Shown piece after piece: positions 2,507 through 55,655 of a DNA stretch of 64,000 nucleotides. Source of the stretch: Adhaeribacter radiodurans (lineage in GTDB: Bacteria > Bacteroidota > Bacteroidia > Cytophagales > Hymenobacteraceae); the NCBI RefSeq assembly GCF_014075995.1, contig NZ_CP055153.1, forward strand, positions 496,001-560,000. The letters are read 5' to 3'. The stretch's first letter is position 1; every line of letters begins with the position of its first letter. The translations under genes and the position numbers were made by a program. The notes beneath the pieces are model-generated. The model made no database searches. It was not told where the DNA came from and was given only the letters and a program-made list of their open reading frames with translations.

Positions 2507-4117
2507 ATGAAATACATACATAAAATTATTTTAGGTACGATGGGGCTGGTAGTTCCCTTAGCCGGTTGTGATACGGATGAGTTGCATAATTTAAATGTGA
2601 ACCCACAAGCCGTAAATCAAATTGATTTAAATTACCTTTTTACCGCTTCAGAGTTAGGTATTGCCTCTAACGGATCAGCCGGCGATAACCGGTTTATCGA
2701 TTGGCGAACTAATATTGGGATGACTGCTTACGCTATTCAGCATTTAGCGAATGCAGGCGGCGGTATTGCCCCTGGTGATAAATATCAGGATAATTTCGAG
2801 ACTGCTTCTGCGCCTTTTGAATTTACCTATAACGACCAGTTAAAAAATATTGCTGAAATTCTGAAGCAAACTGGCCCAGGCGGATTTGCCGAAGGTAAAT
2901 ATCAGAATATGCGTAACGCAGCTCGGATTGTCAGAGCATTTAGCTTTCACCGGTTAACTGACTTTTACGGTAATGTTCCGTACTTTGAAGCTAACCAGGG
3001 TATGGAAGGTATTTTCTTTCCCAAGTATGATAAGCAATCGGCTATTTACGCCGACTTATTGAAGGAGTTAGATGAAGCTTCTACCGCTCTAAGTGCTACT
3101 AATCCGGACGAAGGATTTGCTAAAGCTGATTTTATTTATGAAGGCGATGTTGCTAAATGGAAAAGATGGGGTAACTCTCTAATGCTCCGATTAGCCATGC
3201 GGATCTCAAACGTAGCACCTGAATTATCTAAGCAATACGTGACCAAAGCCGTAGCCGGTGGCGTGTTTACCAGTAACGCGGATAACGTTTGGGTAAAAAT
3301 GGGAACCGGACCAAGCCAGTGGATAAACCAAAACGGTATTTCTCGGGCTTTTTATCCGGGCGATGGTGGGCAGCCTTCTTACTTGAGTAAAACTCTGGTA
3401 GATTTTCTAAAAGGTACTAACCAAAATTCAGTTGCCGATGATGATCCGCGGTTAATGATTTTGAGCGGGGGTATTGCTGATTGGTCAGCTGCTGAGTGGA
3501 AACCTATTAACACCGACCCACTAGCTCAAAAAGGTATGCCAAATGGTTTAGATCAGAGTGGATTGGATGCTTTAGAAGGCGGTCCGGTAGATCAGGCTAA
3601 AACCTATTCGCGTATTAACTTCTTAATGCTGCAATTAGATGATCCGTATATGATTATGAACTACGGTGAAGTAGAATTGCTGTTGGCCGAAGCGCTGGAA
3701 AGAGGAATTGGCTCTGGCATTACTGGAACAGCTGCGGAGCATTACAATGCTGGCGTAAAAGCTTCTATGCAAATGTATACTCCTTATGATGCTTCTTTAA
3801 TCGTATCGGATGCTCAGGTTGCTACTTACCTCGCTGCCTATCCATATGGTTCAGCTAAAGGAGCTTTACCAATGATTTATGAGCAATTGTGGGTGAATAA
3901 ATTCTTTAACTGGTGGGAAGCCTGGTCTGACTGGAGAAGAACCGAGTATCCGCAGTTAACTCCGGTTAATTATCAAGGTAATGTTACTAATGGTACTATT
4001 CCGGTACGTTTAAAATATCCATCTACGGAAGCGGCCGGTAATCAAAATTACGCTACTGGTGCAACCAAACCAGATACCTACACTACTAAAGTGTGGTGGG
4101 ATGGCGGAACAGAATAA
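2507..4117 (+). CDS. SusD/RagB-family nutrient-binding outer-membrane lipoprotein
   Basis: 536 residues with a lipoprotein signal; the lipobox LAGC puts the acylated Cys at residue 21. The body is helix-rich with SusD-type features, such as NPQAVNQIDLNYLF near the N-terminus and NYGEVELLLAEALERG in the second half. It belongs to the SusD-like group that carries no obvious sugar-specific signature. It would sit at the cell surface as the lid of the SusC-like barrel encoded 23 bp upstream, in the same transcript, which ends at the hairpin at 4148-4180. SusCD pairs also import peptides and other ligands, so the substrate remains open. Confidence 0.93.
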   Translation: MKYIHKIILGTMGLVVPLAGCDTDELHNLNVNPQAVNQIDLNYLFTASELGIASNGSAGDNRFIDWRTNIGMTAYAIQHLANAGGGIAPGDKYQDNFETASAPFEFTYNDQLKNIAEILKQTGPGGFAEGKYQNMRNAARIVRAFSFHRLTDFYGNVPYFEANQGMEGIFFPKYDKQSAIYADLLKELDEASTALSATNPDEGFAKADFIYEGDVAKWKRWGNSLMLRLAMRISNVAPELSKQYVTKAVAGGVFTSNADNVWVKMGTGPSQWINQNGISRAFYPGDGGQPSYLSKTLVDFLKGTNQNSVADDDPRLMILSGGIADWSAAEWKPINTDPLAQKGMPNGLDQSGLDALEGGPVDQAKTYSRINFLMLQLDDPYMIMNYGEVELLLAEALERGIGSGITGTAAEHYNAGVKASMQMYTPYDASLIVSDAQVATYLAAYPYGSAKGALPMIYEQLWVNKFFNWWEAWSDWRRTEYPQLTPVNYQGNVTNGTIPVRLKYPSTEAAGNQNYATGATKPDTYTTKVWWDGGTE

Positions 4118-36793: not shown

Positions 36794-36849
36794 GAATTGC
36801 AGGTTTGAGGTTGCAAGTTACAAGTTTTACGTTGCAGATTACAGGTTAG
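36794..36849. repeat. Heptad repeat array upstream of hemH
   Basis: Eight consecutive in-phase 7-bp units with T-T at positions 4-5 in every unit, for example AGGTTGC and AAGTTAC (consensus A-R-G-T-T-N-C). The array starts 6 bp from the hemH ATG; a ninth unit follows shifted by one base. Confidence 0.75.
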
Positions 36850-36950
36850 CAAGTTGAGAAGTTAACATAAGTAGGCTGAGCTTTGTTCTAAAATTTATGC
36901 AGCAACAGGCTTATATTAAGAGATGTATCAAAATAATCAATTAAAAACCG

Positions 36951-36958
36951 TACTTTTG
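36951..36958 (+). promoter_or_regulatory. Candidate -7 element of era
   Basis: TACTTTTG followed by GCGCCC fits TAnnTTTG; the ATG of era is 143 bp downstream. No clear -33 TTTG. Confidence 0.38.
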
Positions 36959-37075
36959 CGCCCTCGTTGCTAGAGTTAGAGGAAATTAGCTAAAAATTTA
37001 ATGCTGGCTACTTACCTGGAGTAAAATAGATTAATACAGAAGGCTATTAATTTTCTAACCTTTCAACTATATAAT

Positions 37076-37096
37076 CAGCAACGTGTAACCTGAAAC
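37076..37096. repeat. Short heptad array before era
   Basis: Three 7-bp units ending in AAC (including GTGTAAC and CTGAAAC) end 4 bp before the ATG of era. They are the complement of the words upstream of hemH. Confidence 0.5.
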
Positions 37097-37100
37097 TAAA

Positions 37101-46583: not shown

Positions 46584-46611
46584 CGAATAACGAACAACGA
46601 ATAACGAACAA
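46584..46611. repeat. Heptad repeat CGAAYAA x4 before the dehydrogenase/hydratase gene
   Basis: CGAATAA and CGAACAA alternate, making an exact 14-bp tandem duplication (46584-46597 and 46598-46611), ending 18 bp before the ATG. Confidence 0.75.
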
Positions 46612-46629
46612 CTACTTCGTGTCTGTCAA

Positions 46630-49032: not shown

Positions 49033-49093
49033 AAAATTTAAAAATTGAATGAGAAGCTTGGAGTTGTAGAAGTTTGAATTGCTTATAACGGAT

Positions 49094-49128
49094 AATCTAA
49101 TCTCCAATATCAAATATCTAACATCTAA
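49094..49128. repeat. Heptad array before the thiolase gene
   Basis: Five 7-bp units of type TATCTAA / CATCTAA end 4 bp before the ATG at 49133; same word family as at pdxJ and the acyl-CoA dehydrogenase gene. Confidence 0.7.
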
Positions 49129-49132
49129 AAAT

Positions 49133-50311
49133 ATGCAAAATGCCTATATCGTAGCCGGTTATCGTTCGGCTATTACCAAAGCAAACCGGGGCGGCTTCCG
49201 GTTTACCCGCCCCGACGACTTAGCTGCCGATGTCATTAAGCATTTACTGGCTTCGGTGCCTCAGTTAGACTCCGAGCGAGTTGATGATTTAATTGTAGGA
49301 AATGCGGTCCCGGAAGCAGAACAAGGTTTACAAATGGGCCGAATGATCGCCTTATTAGCGTTACCTACCAGCGTGTCTGGGATGACGGTAAACCGCTACT
49401 GTGGCTCCGGTATTGAAACCATTGCGATTGCCTGTAGTAAAATTGCCGCCGGTATTTCGGATTGCATTATTGCCGGCGGTACCGAATCTATGTCGCTGGT
49501 ACCAACAGTAGGTTTTAAAACGGCTCCTAATTACAACTTAGCCGTAAAGCACCCGGAGTATTTCTTAAGCATGGGTTTAACCGCCGAAGCAGTAGCAAAG
49601 GATTACAACGTTTCGCGCGAAGACCAGGACGAATTCTCTTATAACTCGCACCAAAAAGCGATAAAAGCCATTGAAGCCGGTTTGTTCCAGGAGCAAATTG
49701 TGCCCATCACCATCGAAGAAACCTATGTGGATGAGAATGGTAAGAAGAAAACCCGCTCCTTTGTGGTAGATACCGACGAAGGTCCCCGGGCCGATACTTC
49801 CTTAGAAAAACTAGCCAAGCTAAAACCGGTATTTGCGCAAAATGGTACCGTAACGGCTGGCAACGCTTCGCAAACTTCGGATGGCGCTGCTTTTGTAATC
49901 GTCATGAGCGAGCGCCTGGTAAAAGAATTAAATCTGGAGCCTATTGCCCGCATGGTTACTTACGCAACAGGCGGAGTAGACCCGCGCATTATGGGTATGG
50001 GGCCTATTGTGGCGGTACCTAAAGCCATTAAACAAGCCGGTTTGCACTTGAATGATATTGACCTTTTTGAAATTAACGAAGCCTTTGCCGCTCAAACCTT
50101 AGCTGTAGTCCGCCATCTGGATATTCCGGAAGAAAAGTTAAATGTGAGTGGTGGCGCTATTGCAACCGGCCACCCATTAGGTTGCTCCGGGGCTAAATTG
50201 AGCATCCAGCAATGGCACGAACTCCGCCGCCGGAAGCAAAAGTACGGCCTGGTTACTGCCTGCGTAGGCGGTGGTCAGGGAGTGGCGGGGATTTATGAAC
50301 TTTTGAGTTGA
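49133..50311 (+). CDS. Acetyl-CoA acyltransferase (thiolase, FadA-like)
   Basis: 392 residues from the ATG at 49133. An extension to 49079 would be made of heptad repeats and is rejected. Catalytic Cys90 is in NRYCGSGIETIA; GHPLGCSGAK supplies the His and CVGGGQG the second Cys. It cleaves 3-ketoacyl-CoA to acetyl-CoA and a shortened acyl-CoA. It lies 100 bp after the dehydrogenase/hydratase gene. Downstream, a broken IVSP-family gene and its repeat arrays separate it from the acyl-CoA dehydrogenase gene. Confidence 0.95.
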   Translation: MQNAYIVAGYRSAITKANRGGFRFTRPDDLAADVIKHLLASVPQLDSERVDDLIVGNAVPEAEQGLQMGRMIALLALPTSVSGMTVNRYCGSGIETIAIACSKIAAGISDCIIAGGTESMSLVPTVGFKTAPNYNLAVKHPEYFLSMGLTAEAVAKDYNVSREDQDEFSYNSHQKAIKAIEAGLFQEQIVPITIEETYVDENGKKKTRSFVVDTDEGPRADTSLEKLAKLKPVFAQNGTVTAGNASQTSDGAAFVIVMSERLVKELNLEPIARMVTYATGGVDPRIMGMGPIVAVPKAIKQAGLHLNDIDLFEINEAFAAQTLAVVRHLDIPEEKLNVSGGAIATGHPLGCSGAKLSIQQWHELRRRKQKYGLVTACVGGGQGVAGIYELLS

Positions 50312-50346
50312 TTAGATATAGGACAAAGGATGTTGGACAAAAGACT
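50312..50346 (+). repeat. Left heptad array flanking the IVSP-family gene
   Basis: Five 7-bp units begin directly after the thiolase stop and end 5 bp before the IVSP ATG; the units end in or near GGA/GAC (TAGGACA, AAGGATG). 50320-50338 matches the reverse complement of 50718-50736 at 16 of 19 positions. Confidence 0.75.
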
Positions 50347-50351
50347 ATTAT

Positions 50352-50723
50352 ATGCACAATTTTCGGGAACTAAGGATATGGCAAGAATCTATACAAATAG
50401 CAAAAGCAGTATACTTGGAAACGGCGAATTTTCCAGCTAATGAGAAGTTTAGTCTAACATCGCAAATAAATAGATCCGTTGTTTCTATTGCCTCTAACAT
50501 AGCTGAAGGTGCGATTCCTAAAAACTGAAGAAACTCTAATAAAGAATTTCTTCAGTTTTTAGGAATCGCACTTGGTTCTGCTTTTGAACTAGAAACACAA
50601 TTAATCTTAGCTCATTCTTTCGGGTTTATACAAAAGAAAAATTTTGATGAAATTATAAATCAGATTCAACGAATTCAGAAAATGATAAATGCTTTTAAAG
50701 CATCGTTAAATAAAACAGTCTAA
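50352..50723 (+). pseudogene. Four-helix-bundle protein (23S-IVSP/S23 family), disrupted by an in-frame TGA
   Basis: Reading 50352-50723 in one frame gives a full-length 123-residue S23-type protein apart from one TGA at 50526-50528. The start MHNFRELRIWQESIQIAK, the core SVVSIASNIAEGA and then RNSNKEFLQFLGIALGSAFELE are diagnostic for the family whose members are encoded in 23S rRNA intervening sequences and which is related to DGR Avd proteins. Where homologues have a single Gly (EGAGRNS), this copy has five codons, IPKN-stop. The extra bases form the left arm of a 25-bp inverted repeat. A restart downstream of the stop is possible but would lack the N-terminal half. Confidence 0.85.
50509..50571. 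repeat. Perfect 25-bp inverted repeat inside the IVSP gene
   Basis: 50509-50533 and 50547-50571 are exact reverse complements around a 13-nt loop. The right arm is coding sequence of the family (FLQFLGIA); the left arm replaces family sequence. It contains the TGA stop. Confidence 0.9.
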
Positions 50724-50753
50724 CATCCTTATTCCTATGTCTAACATCTAATA
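50719..50753 (+). repeat. Right heptad array flanking the IVSP-family gene
   Basis: Five 7-bp units including two exact copies of TCTAACA (50719-50725, 50740-50746). It begins within the IVSP stop codon and ends 3 bp before the next ATG; it is the inverted counterpart of the array at 50312. Confidence 0.75.
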
Positions 50754-50755
50754 AC

Positions 50756-52540
50756 ATGGAAGTAGCTAATAAAACCCTAAATGGCGGCGAGTTCTTGATA
50801 AAAGAAACTCCGGCGGCCGATGTATTTATTCCGGAGGAATTTAACGAAGAGCAACGCATGATGGCCGAAACGGCCAAAGAATTTGTACAAACGCAAGTGG
50901 AGCCACTGCTAGACCGGCTGGATAACCACGAAGAAGGGTTGATGGAAGGGTTGATGCAACAGGCCGGTGAACTAGGTTTGTTTGCTTTATCCTTACCCGA
51001 AGAATACGGTGGCTTTGATAAAGACTTTAACACGTCGTTGCTGGTAACAGAATCGGTAGGAGGCGGACATTCGTTCCCGGTTGCTTTTGCCGCCCACACT
51101 GGTATTGGCATGCTGCCTATTCTGTATTTTGGTACCGAAGAACAAAAGCAAAAGTACTTACCAAAATTATCCAGTGGGGAGTGGGTTGCGGCTTATTGCC
51201 TCACCGAACCAGGCTCCGGTTCCGATGCATTAGCCGCTAAAACCAAAGCGGTATTGGATGCCGGCGGGGAAAATTACGTTCTGAACGGACAGAAAATGTG
51301 GATTACCAATGCCGGTTTTGCGCAAGTTTTTATTGTTTTTGCTCAGGTAGATGGTGATAAGTTTACCGGCTTTATCGTGGAAAAAGATTTTCCCGGTTTT
51401 AGTTTGGGTAACGAAGAACATAAGATGGGTATTAAAGGCTCTTCTACCCGCCAGGTTTTTCTAACCGATTGCTTAGTGCCTAAAGAAAACGTGCTCGGGC
51501 AAATTAGTAAAGGCCATTTAATTGCGTTTAATATTCTAAACCTAGGCCGGATTAAATTAGCTGCCGCTACCTTGGGAGCTTCTAAAAAAGTAATTAATCT
51601 GGCGGTGAAATATGCCAATGAACGCTCTCAATTTAAAATTCCGATTTCAAAATTTGGGGCTATCCGCCATAAATTAGGCCAAATGGCTACCCGGATATTT
51701 GCCAGCGAATCCGCTTTATACCGCACGGGTAATGACATTTACCTGAAAGAACAAGAATTACTAGCCGCGGGCAAACCATTCGCCGAAGCTTTGTTAGGAG
51801 CCGCAAAAGAATTTGCCGTAGAAGCGGCCATGTTAAAAGTAGACGGTTCCGAAACGTTAGATTATGTGGTAGATGAAGGCGTACAGATTTATGGTGGTTA
51901 CGGGTATTCGGCTGATTATCCTATGGATCGTGCTTACCGCGATGCCCGTATTAACCGCATCTTTGAAGGTACCAACGAAATTAATCGTATGCTTACCGTG
52001 GATATGCTCCTGAAAAAAGCGTTAAAAGGGGAGTTGGATCTGATGAGCCCGGCCAAAGCCATTCAGGACGAACTTATGAGTATTCCGGATTTTGGCGAAG
52101 AGGAAGAAGGCCTGTTTGTAGCCGAAAAGAAAATTATCCGGAACATGAAAAAAGCTATTTTGCTGGTAGCGGGCACGGCGGTACAAAAGTTTATGATGAC
52201 CCTGGAAAAAGAACAGGAAGTACTCATGAACATTGCCGATATGGCCATACAAACTTACATCGCTGAATCAACCTTATTGCGGGTAGAAAAACTCATTAAT
52301 CTGAAGGGGGAAGAAGCAGCTGCTCGCCAAAAGGATATGGCTCTGGTGTATTTATACGATGCGTTGGATGGTATTTACTTAGCAGGTAAAGAAGCTATAG
52401 CCGCCATGGCCGAAGGCGATGAATATAAATTGTTATTCATCGGCATTAAACGGTTTACCAAAGCCGAACCATTTAACATCAAAGAAGCCCGGCGCCGCAT
52501 TGCTTCGGAGATGATTCAACAGAACCAATTTATTTACTAA
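50756..52540 (+). CDS. Acyl-CoA dehydrogenase (VLCAD/ACAD9-like)
   Basis: 594 residues, with the standard N-terminal, middle and C-terminal ACAD domains (about 1-410) and an extra C-terminal region of about 180 residues as in very-long-chain ACADs. AYCLTEPGSGSDALAAKT and MWITNAGFAQVF are the FAD-binding blocks; QIYGGYGYSADYPMDRAYRDARINRIFEGTNEINRM has the catalytic-loop Glu and the family ending. It catalyses the first beta-oxidation step and needs an electron-transfer flavoprotein not found here. A terminator follows. Confidence 0.95.
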   Translation: MEVANKTLNGGEFLIKETPAADVFIPEEFNEEQRMMAETAKEFVQTQVEPLLDRLDNHEEGLMEGLMQQAGELGLFALSLPEEYGGFDKDFNTSLLVTESVGGGHSFPVAFAAHTGIGMLPILYFGTEEQKQKYLPKLSSGEWVAAYCLTEPGSGSDALAAKTKAVLDAGGENYVLNGQKMWITNAGFAQVFIVFAQVDGDKFTGFIVEKDFPGFSLGNEEHKMGIKGSSTRQVFLTDCLVPKENVLGQISKGHLIAFNILNLGRIKLAAATLGASKKVINLAVKYANERSQFKIPISKFGAIRHKLGQMATRIFASESALYRTGNDIYLKEQELLAAGKPFAEALLGAAKEFAVEAAMLKVDGSETLDYVVDEGVQIYGGYGYSADYPMDRAYRDARINRIFEGTNEINRMLTVDMLLKKALKGELDLMSPAKAIQDELMSIPDFGEEEEGLFVAEKKIIRNMKKAILLVAGTAVQKFMMTLEKEQEVLMNIADMAIQTYIAESTLLRVEKLINLKGEEAAARQKDMALVYLYDALDGIYLAGKEAIAAMAEGDEYKLLFIGIKRFTKAEPFNIKEARRRIASEMIQQNQFIY

Positions 52541-55500: not shown

Positions 55501-55516
55501 TCTTTTAAATTATGTA

Positions 55517-55537
55517 TTAGAAATTAAAAATTGGAAA
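55517..55537. repeat. Heptad array upstream of recG
   Basis: Three units: TTAGAAA, TTAAAAA and TTGGAAA, in phase. Confidence 0.5.
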
Positions 55538-55613
55538 TGAATCTAAACAAGAAGATTTCATTCCTTGATATTATAGCATTTGCTTTTTTAATTTTCAATC
55601 AATATCAAATAGT

Positions 55614-55655
55614 TTTTAAATTTCTAATTCATAATTTTTAATTTCAAATTCTTAA
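55614..55655. repeat. Heptad array after gldD
   Basis: Six in-phase units of TTTCTAA type (TTTCTAA, TTCATAA, TTTTTAA and others), 5 bp from the gldD stop; same words as before the cysteine desulfurase gene (32726). Confidence 0.7.

Follow-up and report, generated by a model that had tools for sequence, protein, structure and literature searches.

An S23 gene between inverted heptad arrays in Adhaeribacter radiodurans, probably a small mobile unit in decay

In Adhaeribacter radiodurans, a small S23/four-helix-bundle gene lies between a thiolase gene and an acyl-CoA dehydrogenase gene and is flanked on both sides by 7-bp repeats. The question raised by this locus is whether gene and repeats form a discrete unit that is or was mobile, as was proposed in a first-pass annotation of the window (the whole 64,000-nucleotide stretch of contig NZ_CP055153.1 that was analysed). 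The feature probably derives from a small mobile unit composed of an array, an S23 gene and an inverted array, of which it would be a decayed copy; recognition of the arrays by an S23 pentamer is inferred.

The S23 locus in the window and in its relatives

The locus consists of the following features, in window positions:

49079..50311, + strand: thiolase gene, upstream host neighbour, outside the unit
50312..50346, + strand: left arm, five degenerate heptads (TTAGATA TAGGACA AAGGATG TTGGACA AAAGACT)
50352..50723, + strand: S23/four-helix-bundle gene (PF05635), 123.5 bits against a cut-off of 33.8, in-frame TGA at codon 59
50509..50571, + strand: near-perfect palindrome with 29-nt arms and a 5-nt loop, containing the TGA
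50717..50751, + strand: right arm (AGTCTAA CATCCTT ATTCCTA TGTCTAA CATCTAA), inverted relative to the left arm
50756..52540, + strand: acyl-CoA dehydrogenase (ACAD) gene, downstream host neighbour, used as the anchor for the empty-site search

The neighbours (49079..50311 and 50756..52540) are genes that we take to be those of a thiolase and an acyl-CoA dehydrogenase; the ATG at 49133 is the more likely start of the former. The two mutually inverted 35-bp arrays described by the first-pass annotation were recovered on both sides of the S23 gene (50312-50346 and 50717-50751), the left one beginning, as described, immediately 3' of the thiolase stop. The reported inverted match of 50320-50338 with 50718-50736 at 16 of 19 bases is exact, and the best arm pair found (50312-50338 with 50718-50744) comprises 27 nt with 85% complementarity; in its alignment the right array has the one extra outer heptad that had been claimed. 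The right arm does overlap the S23 stop codon (TAA, 50721-50723), but its end is separated from the ACAD ATG (50756) by 4 bp and not by 3 bp. The arms match each other with a score of 19, which was reached by none of 5000 mononucleotide shuffles (maximum 14). The lag-7 score is only 5 per side, and the arms are not among the repeats listed by Tandem Repeats Finder. The arms are thus degenerate, and the heptad claim would be weak from the window locus alone; it is firm because of the same-site relatives and the family-wide test.

The profile score of the gene exceeds the curated PF05635 cut-off, and its orthologue L018 reaches 127 bits against a curated cut-off of 24 (S23 / TIGR02436 / PF05635). 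An S23/four-helix-bundle gene is therefore present as annotated, but its reading frame is broken by the single in-frame TGA. As RNA, the palindrome is predicted to form a hairpin of -43.9 kcal/mol (z -13.2), and its left arm, when reverse-complemented, reads as the native codons that follow. Judging from the sequence, the palindrome and the TGA look like a template-switch (quasi-palindrome) mutation in which these codons were copied. Among same-site orthologues, stops are found in L012 (TAA) and L016 (TGA), while the frame is intact in L009, L010 and L018.

The window genome (G000, 6.9 Mb) contains five PF05635 genes, and inverted 7-bp arrays bracket all five, four by score (inverted scores 17-27) and L002 by eye (score 9, equal to the control median). 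The five units carry five different heptads: TAGGACA-like, GTGGACT/ATCGACT, GGTAAAT, ATTAGAA and GTTGCAG. Further arrays in the window are not attached to an S23 gene:

49096..49128, + strand: single array TCTAATCTCCAATATCAAATATCTAACATCTAA, directly 5' of the thiolase ATG, with the heptad type of the right arm
46584..46612, + strand: single array (CGAATAACGAACAA)2, 5' of a 3-hydroxyacyl-CoA dehydrogenase gene
55516..55650, no strand assigned: gene-less inverted heptad pair, ATTAGAA... / ...TTCTAAT, with the heptad of S23 unit L004 of the window genome
36801..37097, no strand assigned: gene-less inverted heptad pair of the GTTGCAG type, as in S23 unit L005

An array at the position of 49096-49128 is present in five congeners (L009, L010, L012, L016 and L018), with the heptads partly changed. 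The array at 46584-46612 consists of two 14-bp copies, and its heptad is that of S23 unit L013 from another species of the genus. In the pair at 36801..37097, the right arm is degenerate and the right limit approximate.

In seven S23-bearing genomes of the genus, the identical few gaps are repeatedly occupied. The heptad at a given gap varies among species, the ACAD site included, and within a unit the two arms mostly match in heptad (L009 is an exception). Among 27 genomes with the ACAD gene, the thiolase-ACAD gap contains S23 in 11 (G133 being counted from a C-terminal fragment only) and measures 9-23 bp without S23 in four relatives (G125, G128, G140 and G143). The ACAD gene has a different context in another 11, and G006, which was not read, was left out. 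Hence the empty sites for which the first-pass annotation suggested searching do exist at this gap, the comparison there being at the gene level only. In the tree, the S23 proteins of this gap are gathered in a single group of 20 rows that has only weak support and in which two unlabelled rows are named duplicates; it is no strict clade (5 changes needed), and other unlabelled rows may represent the same gap in other genera. From this grouping and the filled and empty relatives, the unit at the thiolase-ACAD gap is probably an old one that has been passed on by descent and has disappeared in places.

Inverted heptad arrays around S23 genes

S23 genes were found in at least 90 of the 118 Bacteroidota genomes sampled. 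The family-wide test was based on 150 S23 loci, nearly all from Bacteroidota and two from Balneolota: 30 from the genus search, 40 from across the phylum (hand-picked, one good match per genome, among the best-scoring matches listed) and 80 named loci, which were the best 80 of at least 582. Two loci (L074 and L091) with a flank shorter than 100 nt were dropped, leaving 148. The controls were 178 genes of the same loci, reduced to 163 by removing 15 S23 genes, 11 of which themselves pass the inverted test.

An inverted upstream/downstream match of at least 14 was observed for 106 of the 148 S23 genes and for 3 of the 163 non-S23 controls, which bears out the enrichment expected by the first-pass annotation. 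A lag-7 score of at least 8 on both sides was reached by 91/148 and 5/163, respectively. The lag profile of self-matches, calculated before the control clean-up, has peaks at 7, 14 and 21 only. Matches of 14 or more link an arm to its own partner in 71.6% of cases and to the partner from another locus in 5.9%. Chance or base composition as the cause was rejected on the strength of this difference and of 106/148 versus 3/163. The p-values of the Fisher test are rough, since related loci were used. Both two-sided tests are failed by 30 of the 148 S23 genes, and seven pass none of the three tests.

The median distance from the upstream stop to the left array is 3 nt (113 units), and that from the right array to the following start is 5 nt (80 units). 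Most arms contain 4-5 heptads (102 of 171 units measured). The arms hardly mirror each other in the order of their heptad variants (16.75 versus 16.17 after order shuffling, 102 units), so a model in which the arms are kept only for pairing, as a strictly conserved stem, was set aside. The period is 8 in 15/154 units. By eye, the sister rows L018 (period 7) and L071 (period 8) share a TTCGAT core, which means that the array period can change. Period-8 arrays were noted in L027, L028, L033, L035, L071, L142, L231 and L235.

The relation of heptad sequence to S23 sequence was followed in 154 units, kept by array score from the 197 remaining after four duplicates had been removed. Heptad similarity is 0.61 at an S23 identity of at least 70% versus 0.39-0.41 below 40%, and the rank correlation of 0.147 exceeds the maximum of 200 label shuffles (0.111). 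This is a Mantel-type test on related loci, so its p-value is rough. Same-site pairs have a heptad similarity of 0.62; for pairs without homologous flanks the value is 0.54 in the 9 pairs with 70-80% identity and 0.49 in the 3 pairs with 80% or more. The tie between heptad and S23 is thus clear for the same site and moderate for different sites. A group of GAGATNT heptads spans several genera and sites by eye.

Outside Bacteroidota chromosomes, 12 of 30 S23-matching plasmid records (ten cyanobacterial, one from Riemerella and one from Azospirillum) and nine IMG/VR contigs were examined. Among the ten cyanobacterial units, the inverted score is at least 14 in six and 13 and 11 in two more, L161 has direct arrays and L160 has none. 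The Riemerella plasmid unit scores 16. Seven of the nine IMG/VR loci reach 14, two of these being near-copies, and L155 and L159 score 13 and 9. Phage carriage was not detected, one S23 query giving no match in 50,697 phage records. Three of the cyanobacterial plasmid units are located in CRISPR-Cas operons (L161 1198-1557, L169 1192-1560 and L164 1192-1548), two between cas6 and cas4 and one between cas10 and cmr3.

In the Azospirillum record (L171, 1140-1604), from plasmid AZO_p2 of Azospirillum lipoferum 4B, a 23S rRNA gene is interrupted by an S23 insert that is not annotated. Heptad arms are seen by eye on both sides; the automatic window missed the left one and returned a score of 10. 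Two fully read sister 23S copies of this strain are empty, with aligned flanks 100% identical, and have a plain stem-loop at this position. The unit replaces the loop end of a 23S helix, presumably helix 45 by analogy with the Coxiella intervening sequence (IVS).

Unit boundaries, empty sites and gene-less copies

L237 and L241, at unrelated places of genome G040, are 80% alike from ORF-60 to ORF+44 only. For the cyanobacterial pair L166 and L167, whose places differ, the similarity is confined to -41 to +12. Elsewhere in the genus of G040, the L237 block is found in G150 (at the L241 gap) and once in G152 with both limits kept, at a second place in G152 and in G149 with the left limit kept and the right end shorter, and it also recurs in G145. 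At about 3013-3300 of the L237 locus, the segments 3013-3104 and 3156-3300 recur in its genome or genus separately from the S23 unit. In three Flavobacteriaceae contigs, the gene for a 96-97% identical S23 protein stands 5' of a 3-hydroxyacyl-CoA dehydrogenase gene in L102 and between that gene and a thiolase gene in L105 and L110, these gene names again being our own assumption. Read from sequence comparison, this is a putative hop within an operon type like that of the window.

At the base level, filled and empty sites were compared on plasmids. The filled L166 and L264 and the empty L254 and L255 have flanks 97-98% identical. The unit, from array edge to array edge, measures 420 bp in L166 and 406 bp in L264, these copies of one insertion differing by two heptads. 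GTAAT flanks it on both sides and is single in the empty site. In the same way, TTCTA is a direct repeat when L167 is compared with L262 (flank pieces 89-98% identical), so that exact 5-bp direct repeats are found at two sites; the base-level empty counterparts of L167 are L261 and L262. No direct repeat was found between L167 and L263, 11 bp are replaced without duplication at L163, and the counterpart of L169 has 273 bp of other sequence. No array is present in the empty sites of L166 and L167. At the L166 site, plasmid pC052_E of Nostoc sp. C052 has a truncated S23 relic (L256, 1158-1290). Filled and empty sites with defined ends, as expected of a transposable unit, are therefore available in relatives (L166/L264 versus L254/L255; L167 versus L261/L262). 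In these relatives the unit is discrete, the arrays are its ends, it occurs or is missing as one block, and related copies stand at unrelated places. Together with the enrichment, the plasmid pairs support the discrete, possibly mobile unit with inverted heptad-array ends suggested by the first-pass annotation.

The home gaps of L237 and L241 are less simple. Without S23, the L237 gap in G152, G149, G158 and G150 (L278-L281) and the L241 gap in G152 and G158 (the latter L299) contain gene-less heptad pairs instead. These pairs are inverted or partly inverted, with related or different heptads. Loss or gain of the gene inside existing pairs is thus possible there, and gene loss or an exchange of full and miniature units fits equally well as fresh insertion. 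Arrays unchanged in relatives that lack the gene would have counted against the first-pass reading; pairs are present in the relatives of G040, which comes near this condition, but they are not unchanged.

In G040, the arms of L237 and L241 recur as a family of gene-less elements of about 90 bp. The 43 matches include the query itself and three arms belonging to S23 units; a length of 70 bp or more is reached by 24 of them, the query among these. The consensus of 21 aligned copies has GTGAGAC GTGAGAC GTGAAAC GTGAGAC on the left, a core of about 35 bp and GTTTCAC GTTTGAC GTCTCAC GTTTCAC on the right, i.e., four GTGARAC-like heptads per side, as in the S23 units of G040. The RNA fold calculated for one element has -32.7 kcal/mol (z -3.8). 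An exact 5-bp direct repeat at the ends was found in one of 16 copies, and crossed pairs give an expectation of 3.75%; this is chance level, so no target duplication is seen at the miniature copies. G040 thus shows the mark of MITEs, short copies that lack the gene but have the same ends as a full unit.

The intergenic regions of 464 kb of the window genome were surveyed for arrays with a score of at least 13, after filtering out those explained by periods 1-3. There are 15 arrays of period 7 and 0-3 of any other period from 5 to 13. The 15 arrays occupy 14 places; six have an inverted partner (score at least 15) within 223 bp, which leaves no room for an S23 gene, and a seventh (L221) is inverted within itself by eye. 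A translated search for S23 remnants at these seven places gave a best match of only E 0.4. The match of solo arrays to the S23 heptads of their own genome was below 0.05 in 5 of 14 cases. The gene-less pairs of the window genome are candidates for miniature copies.

Possible explanations and known systems

Most likely, the heptads are recognised by the pentamer of their own S23, which helps full and miniature copies to spread, by analogy with RAYT proteins and REPINs; recognition and a cutting enzyme are inferred. The solved S23 relatives 2gsc and 2rld have five chains each, and a toroidal S23 pentamer is described in PMC4990558 (citing Lin et al. 2006), as far as the available part of that paper goes. 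Such a homopentamer of four-helix bundles could bind the 4-5 heptads of an arm, possibly with one subunit per heptad, and could pair both arms, thereby bringing the ends together. An unidentified host enzyme would then copy or move the unit, and miniature elements would be mobilised in trans by a matching S23. An operon would tolerate the unit where it falls after one stop codon and ahead of the following start, and 23S rRNA would do so where a stem-loop is replaced. Heptads may drift within arms through slippage in steps of seven, to which the L166/L264 difference would correspond, and through copying between arms. The window unit would have been inherited at the thiolase/ACAD gap, after which its heptads drifted and its gene died. 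Binding, arm pairing, the enzyme and the direction of causation have been inferred and not demonstrated.

It counts against this reading that the unit carries no transposase and that S23 has no known catalytic motif. The latter would also agree with the units being passengers whose arms are read in trans by a separate transposase, such as a Y1/IS200-like or RAYT enzyme, with S23 doing something else. Y1_Tnp genes are present in all seven genomes tested, the S23-free G002 included, and an inverted match of at least 14, without heptads, is seen around 8 of 19 Y1 loci. However, lag-7 arrays (at least 8) occur on both sides in none of these 19 loci, and heptad sequence tracks the S23 lineage, so that passenger status is considered unlikely. 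Since none of eight reverse-transcriptase genes has such arrays on both sides either, a link of the heptad arrays to Y1 or reverse-transcriptase genes was rejected (0/19 and 0/8). Movement through RNA by a reverse transcriptase, with S23 as a cofactor like Avd in diversity-generating retroelements, would agree with the weak match of S23 to the Avd model (26 bits, E 8e-6), with the 23S IVS lying in a transcribed stem and with the orientation of units between co-directional genes, 113/120 of which point with transcription (other neighbouring gene pairs are on the same strand in 193/247); short target duplications do not contradict it. Yet no RVT_1 match was found in G045 and G003, which have 16 and 6 S23 matches, so a reverse transcriptase is not needed for carriage, and three of the ten cyanobacterial units (L160, L162 and L165) are antisense to both neighbours. 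We regard this route as rather improbable.

Domesticated regulation, in which the arrays are RNA or protein sites controlling the operon neighbours and S23 is an autoregulated RNA-binding protein, has an analogue in what was proposed for the TAACTGA repeats of Beggiatoaceae. Single arrays just 5' of start codons (49096-49128, likewise in the five congeners) and the short distance from right arrays to the next start also speak for it. It is hard to reconcile with whole units being present or absent at otherwise near-identical places, or with copies that have unrelated neighbours, miniature copies, antisense units and an rRNA insertion; we see little prospect for it. The arrays could finally be the target and not the ends, S23 genes having been inserted into pre-existing heptad pairs. 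Solo arrays are common, as the 15 in 464 kb indicate, and the L237 and L241 home gaps of relatives are occupied by just such pairs. This model is contradicted at the base level by the array-free empty sites of L166 and L167, and it is at odds with arms that track the S23 lineage and with L237 and L241, where the arms are common and the flanks are not. Insertion of S23 into older arrays was accordingly rejected at the two plasmid sites, though not at the L237/L241 gaps, and in general it deserves very little credence. The reading preferred here remains a mobile unit with S23 recognising its ends. We extend it only tentatively, with somewhat more doubt than belief, to the proposal that S23 is the trans-acting factor of a large, unnamed class of mobile DNA without its own transposase. 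In this class a pentameric ring would read heptad-array ends with about one heptad per subunit, the specificity of the ring and the heptads would coevolve, the 23S IVS would occupy one niche, and the scattered heptanucleotide repeats of Cyanobacteria, Bacteroidota and Xanthomonas would be explained as gene-less relatives.

IVS of 23S rRNA with an S23 ORF are known elements of Coxiella, Leptospira and Brucella and have been guessed to be mobile. Like them, the window unit has an S23 ORF with complementary ends, and L171 has heptad arms on both sides; unlike them, the window unit (50312-50755) and all neighbour-scored Bacteroidota units lie between protein genes. The accessible part of PMC4990558, printed in 2016, describes tandem heptamers of strain-variable number upstream of the S23 ORF in the Coxiella IVS, a 28-bp terminal stem, excision of the IVS from RNA by RNase III, and S23 genes as having no known function. 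The first-pass statement that heptad-ended S23 units are undescribed consequently needs correction for the upstream side, as far as that part of the paper shows; arrays on both sides and mobility were not found in the open-access PMC literature. Nor were unit-specific heptads, miniature copies or base-level empty sites for S23/IVS found there. No paper joining S23 genes, both-side heptad arrays and mobility was found among open-access PMC papers alone, so priority is unproven.

Avd is a four-helix bundle with weak homology to S23. The Avd model NF033474 matches two of six S23 proteins with 26.2 and 24 bits against a cut-off of 80, and no match is listed for the other four; the relationship asserted by the first-pass annotation is thus supported by a weak match but remains below the cut-off.

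The heptanucleotide repeats of cyanobacteria are called STRR, and such repeats are, like the present ones, intergenic 7-bp arrays. TAACTGA repeats are reported from Beggiatoaceae, Cyanobacteria and Bacteroidetes (PMC4679880), and 70-75 inverted pairs of GGGAATC repeats from two Xanthomonas genomes (PMC4692102), in the portions of these papers available. Those portions contain no mention of S23 or four helix (PMC4679880) and none of four helix (PMC4692102). The S23 structure PDB 2gsc, that of XCC0516 from Xanthomonas campestris, belongs to the genus of the GGGAATC repeats.

As with insertion sequences and their MITEs, a full unit and short gene-less copies share common ends (other MITE papers, available in part, are PMC4596501 and PMC9769881). 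In contrast to them, the S23 unit has no transposase, its array ends vary between lineages, and its miniature copies lack a target duplication. By analogy, REPINs and RAYTs may serve as the nearest working model: in the available part of PMC3116915, a trans gene per family is accompanied by many gene-less extragenic inverted doublets that fold into hairpins. Unlike in that system, the partner gene is S23 and not a Y1 tyrosine transposase, and the ends are tandem heptads and not single REP palindromes. The carriage of S23 as mobile units with repeat-array ends suggests a function for it, the spreading of itself and of matching miniature elements. Three puzzles are thereby joined: the nature of rRNA IVS, the heptanucleotide repeats that litter some genomes and the role of S23 pentamers. 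Set against these systems, the S23 units can be placed with IVS-like selfish units as a variant of them, and there is a fair chance that a separate class is warranted.
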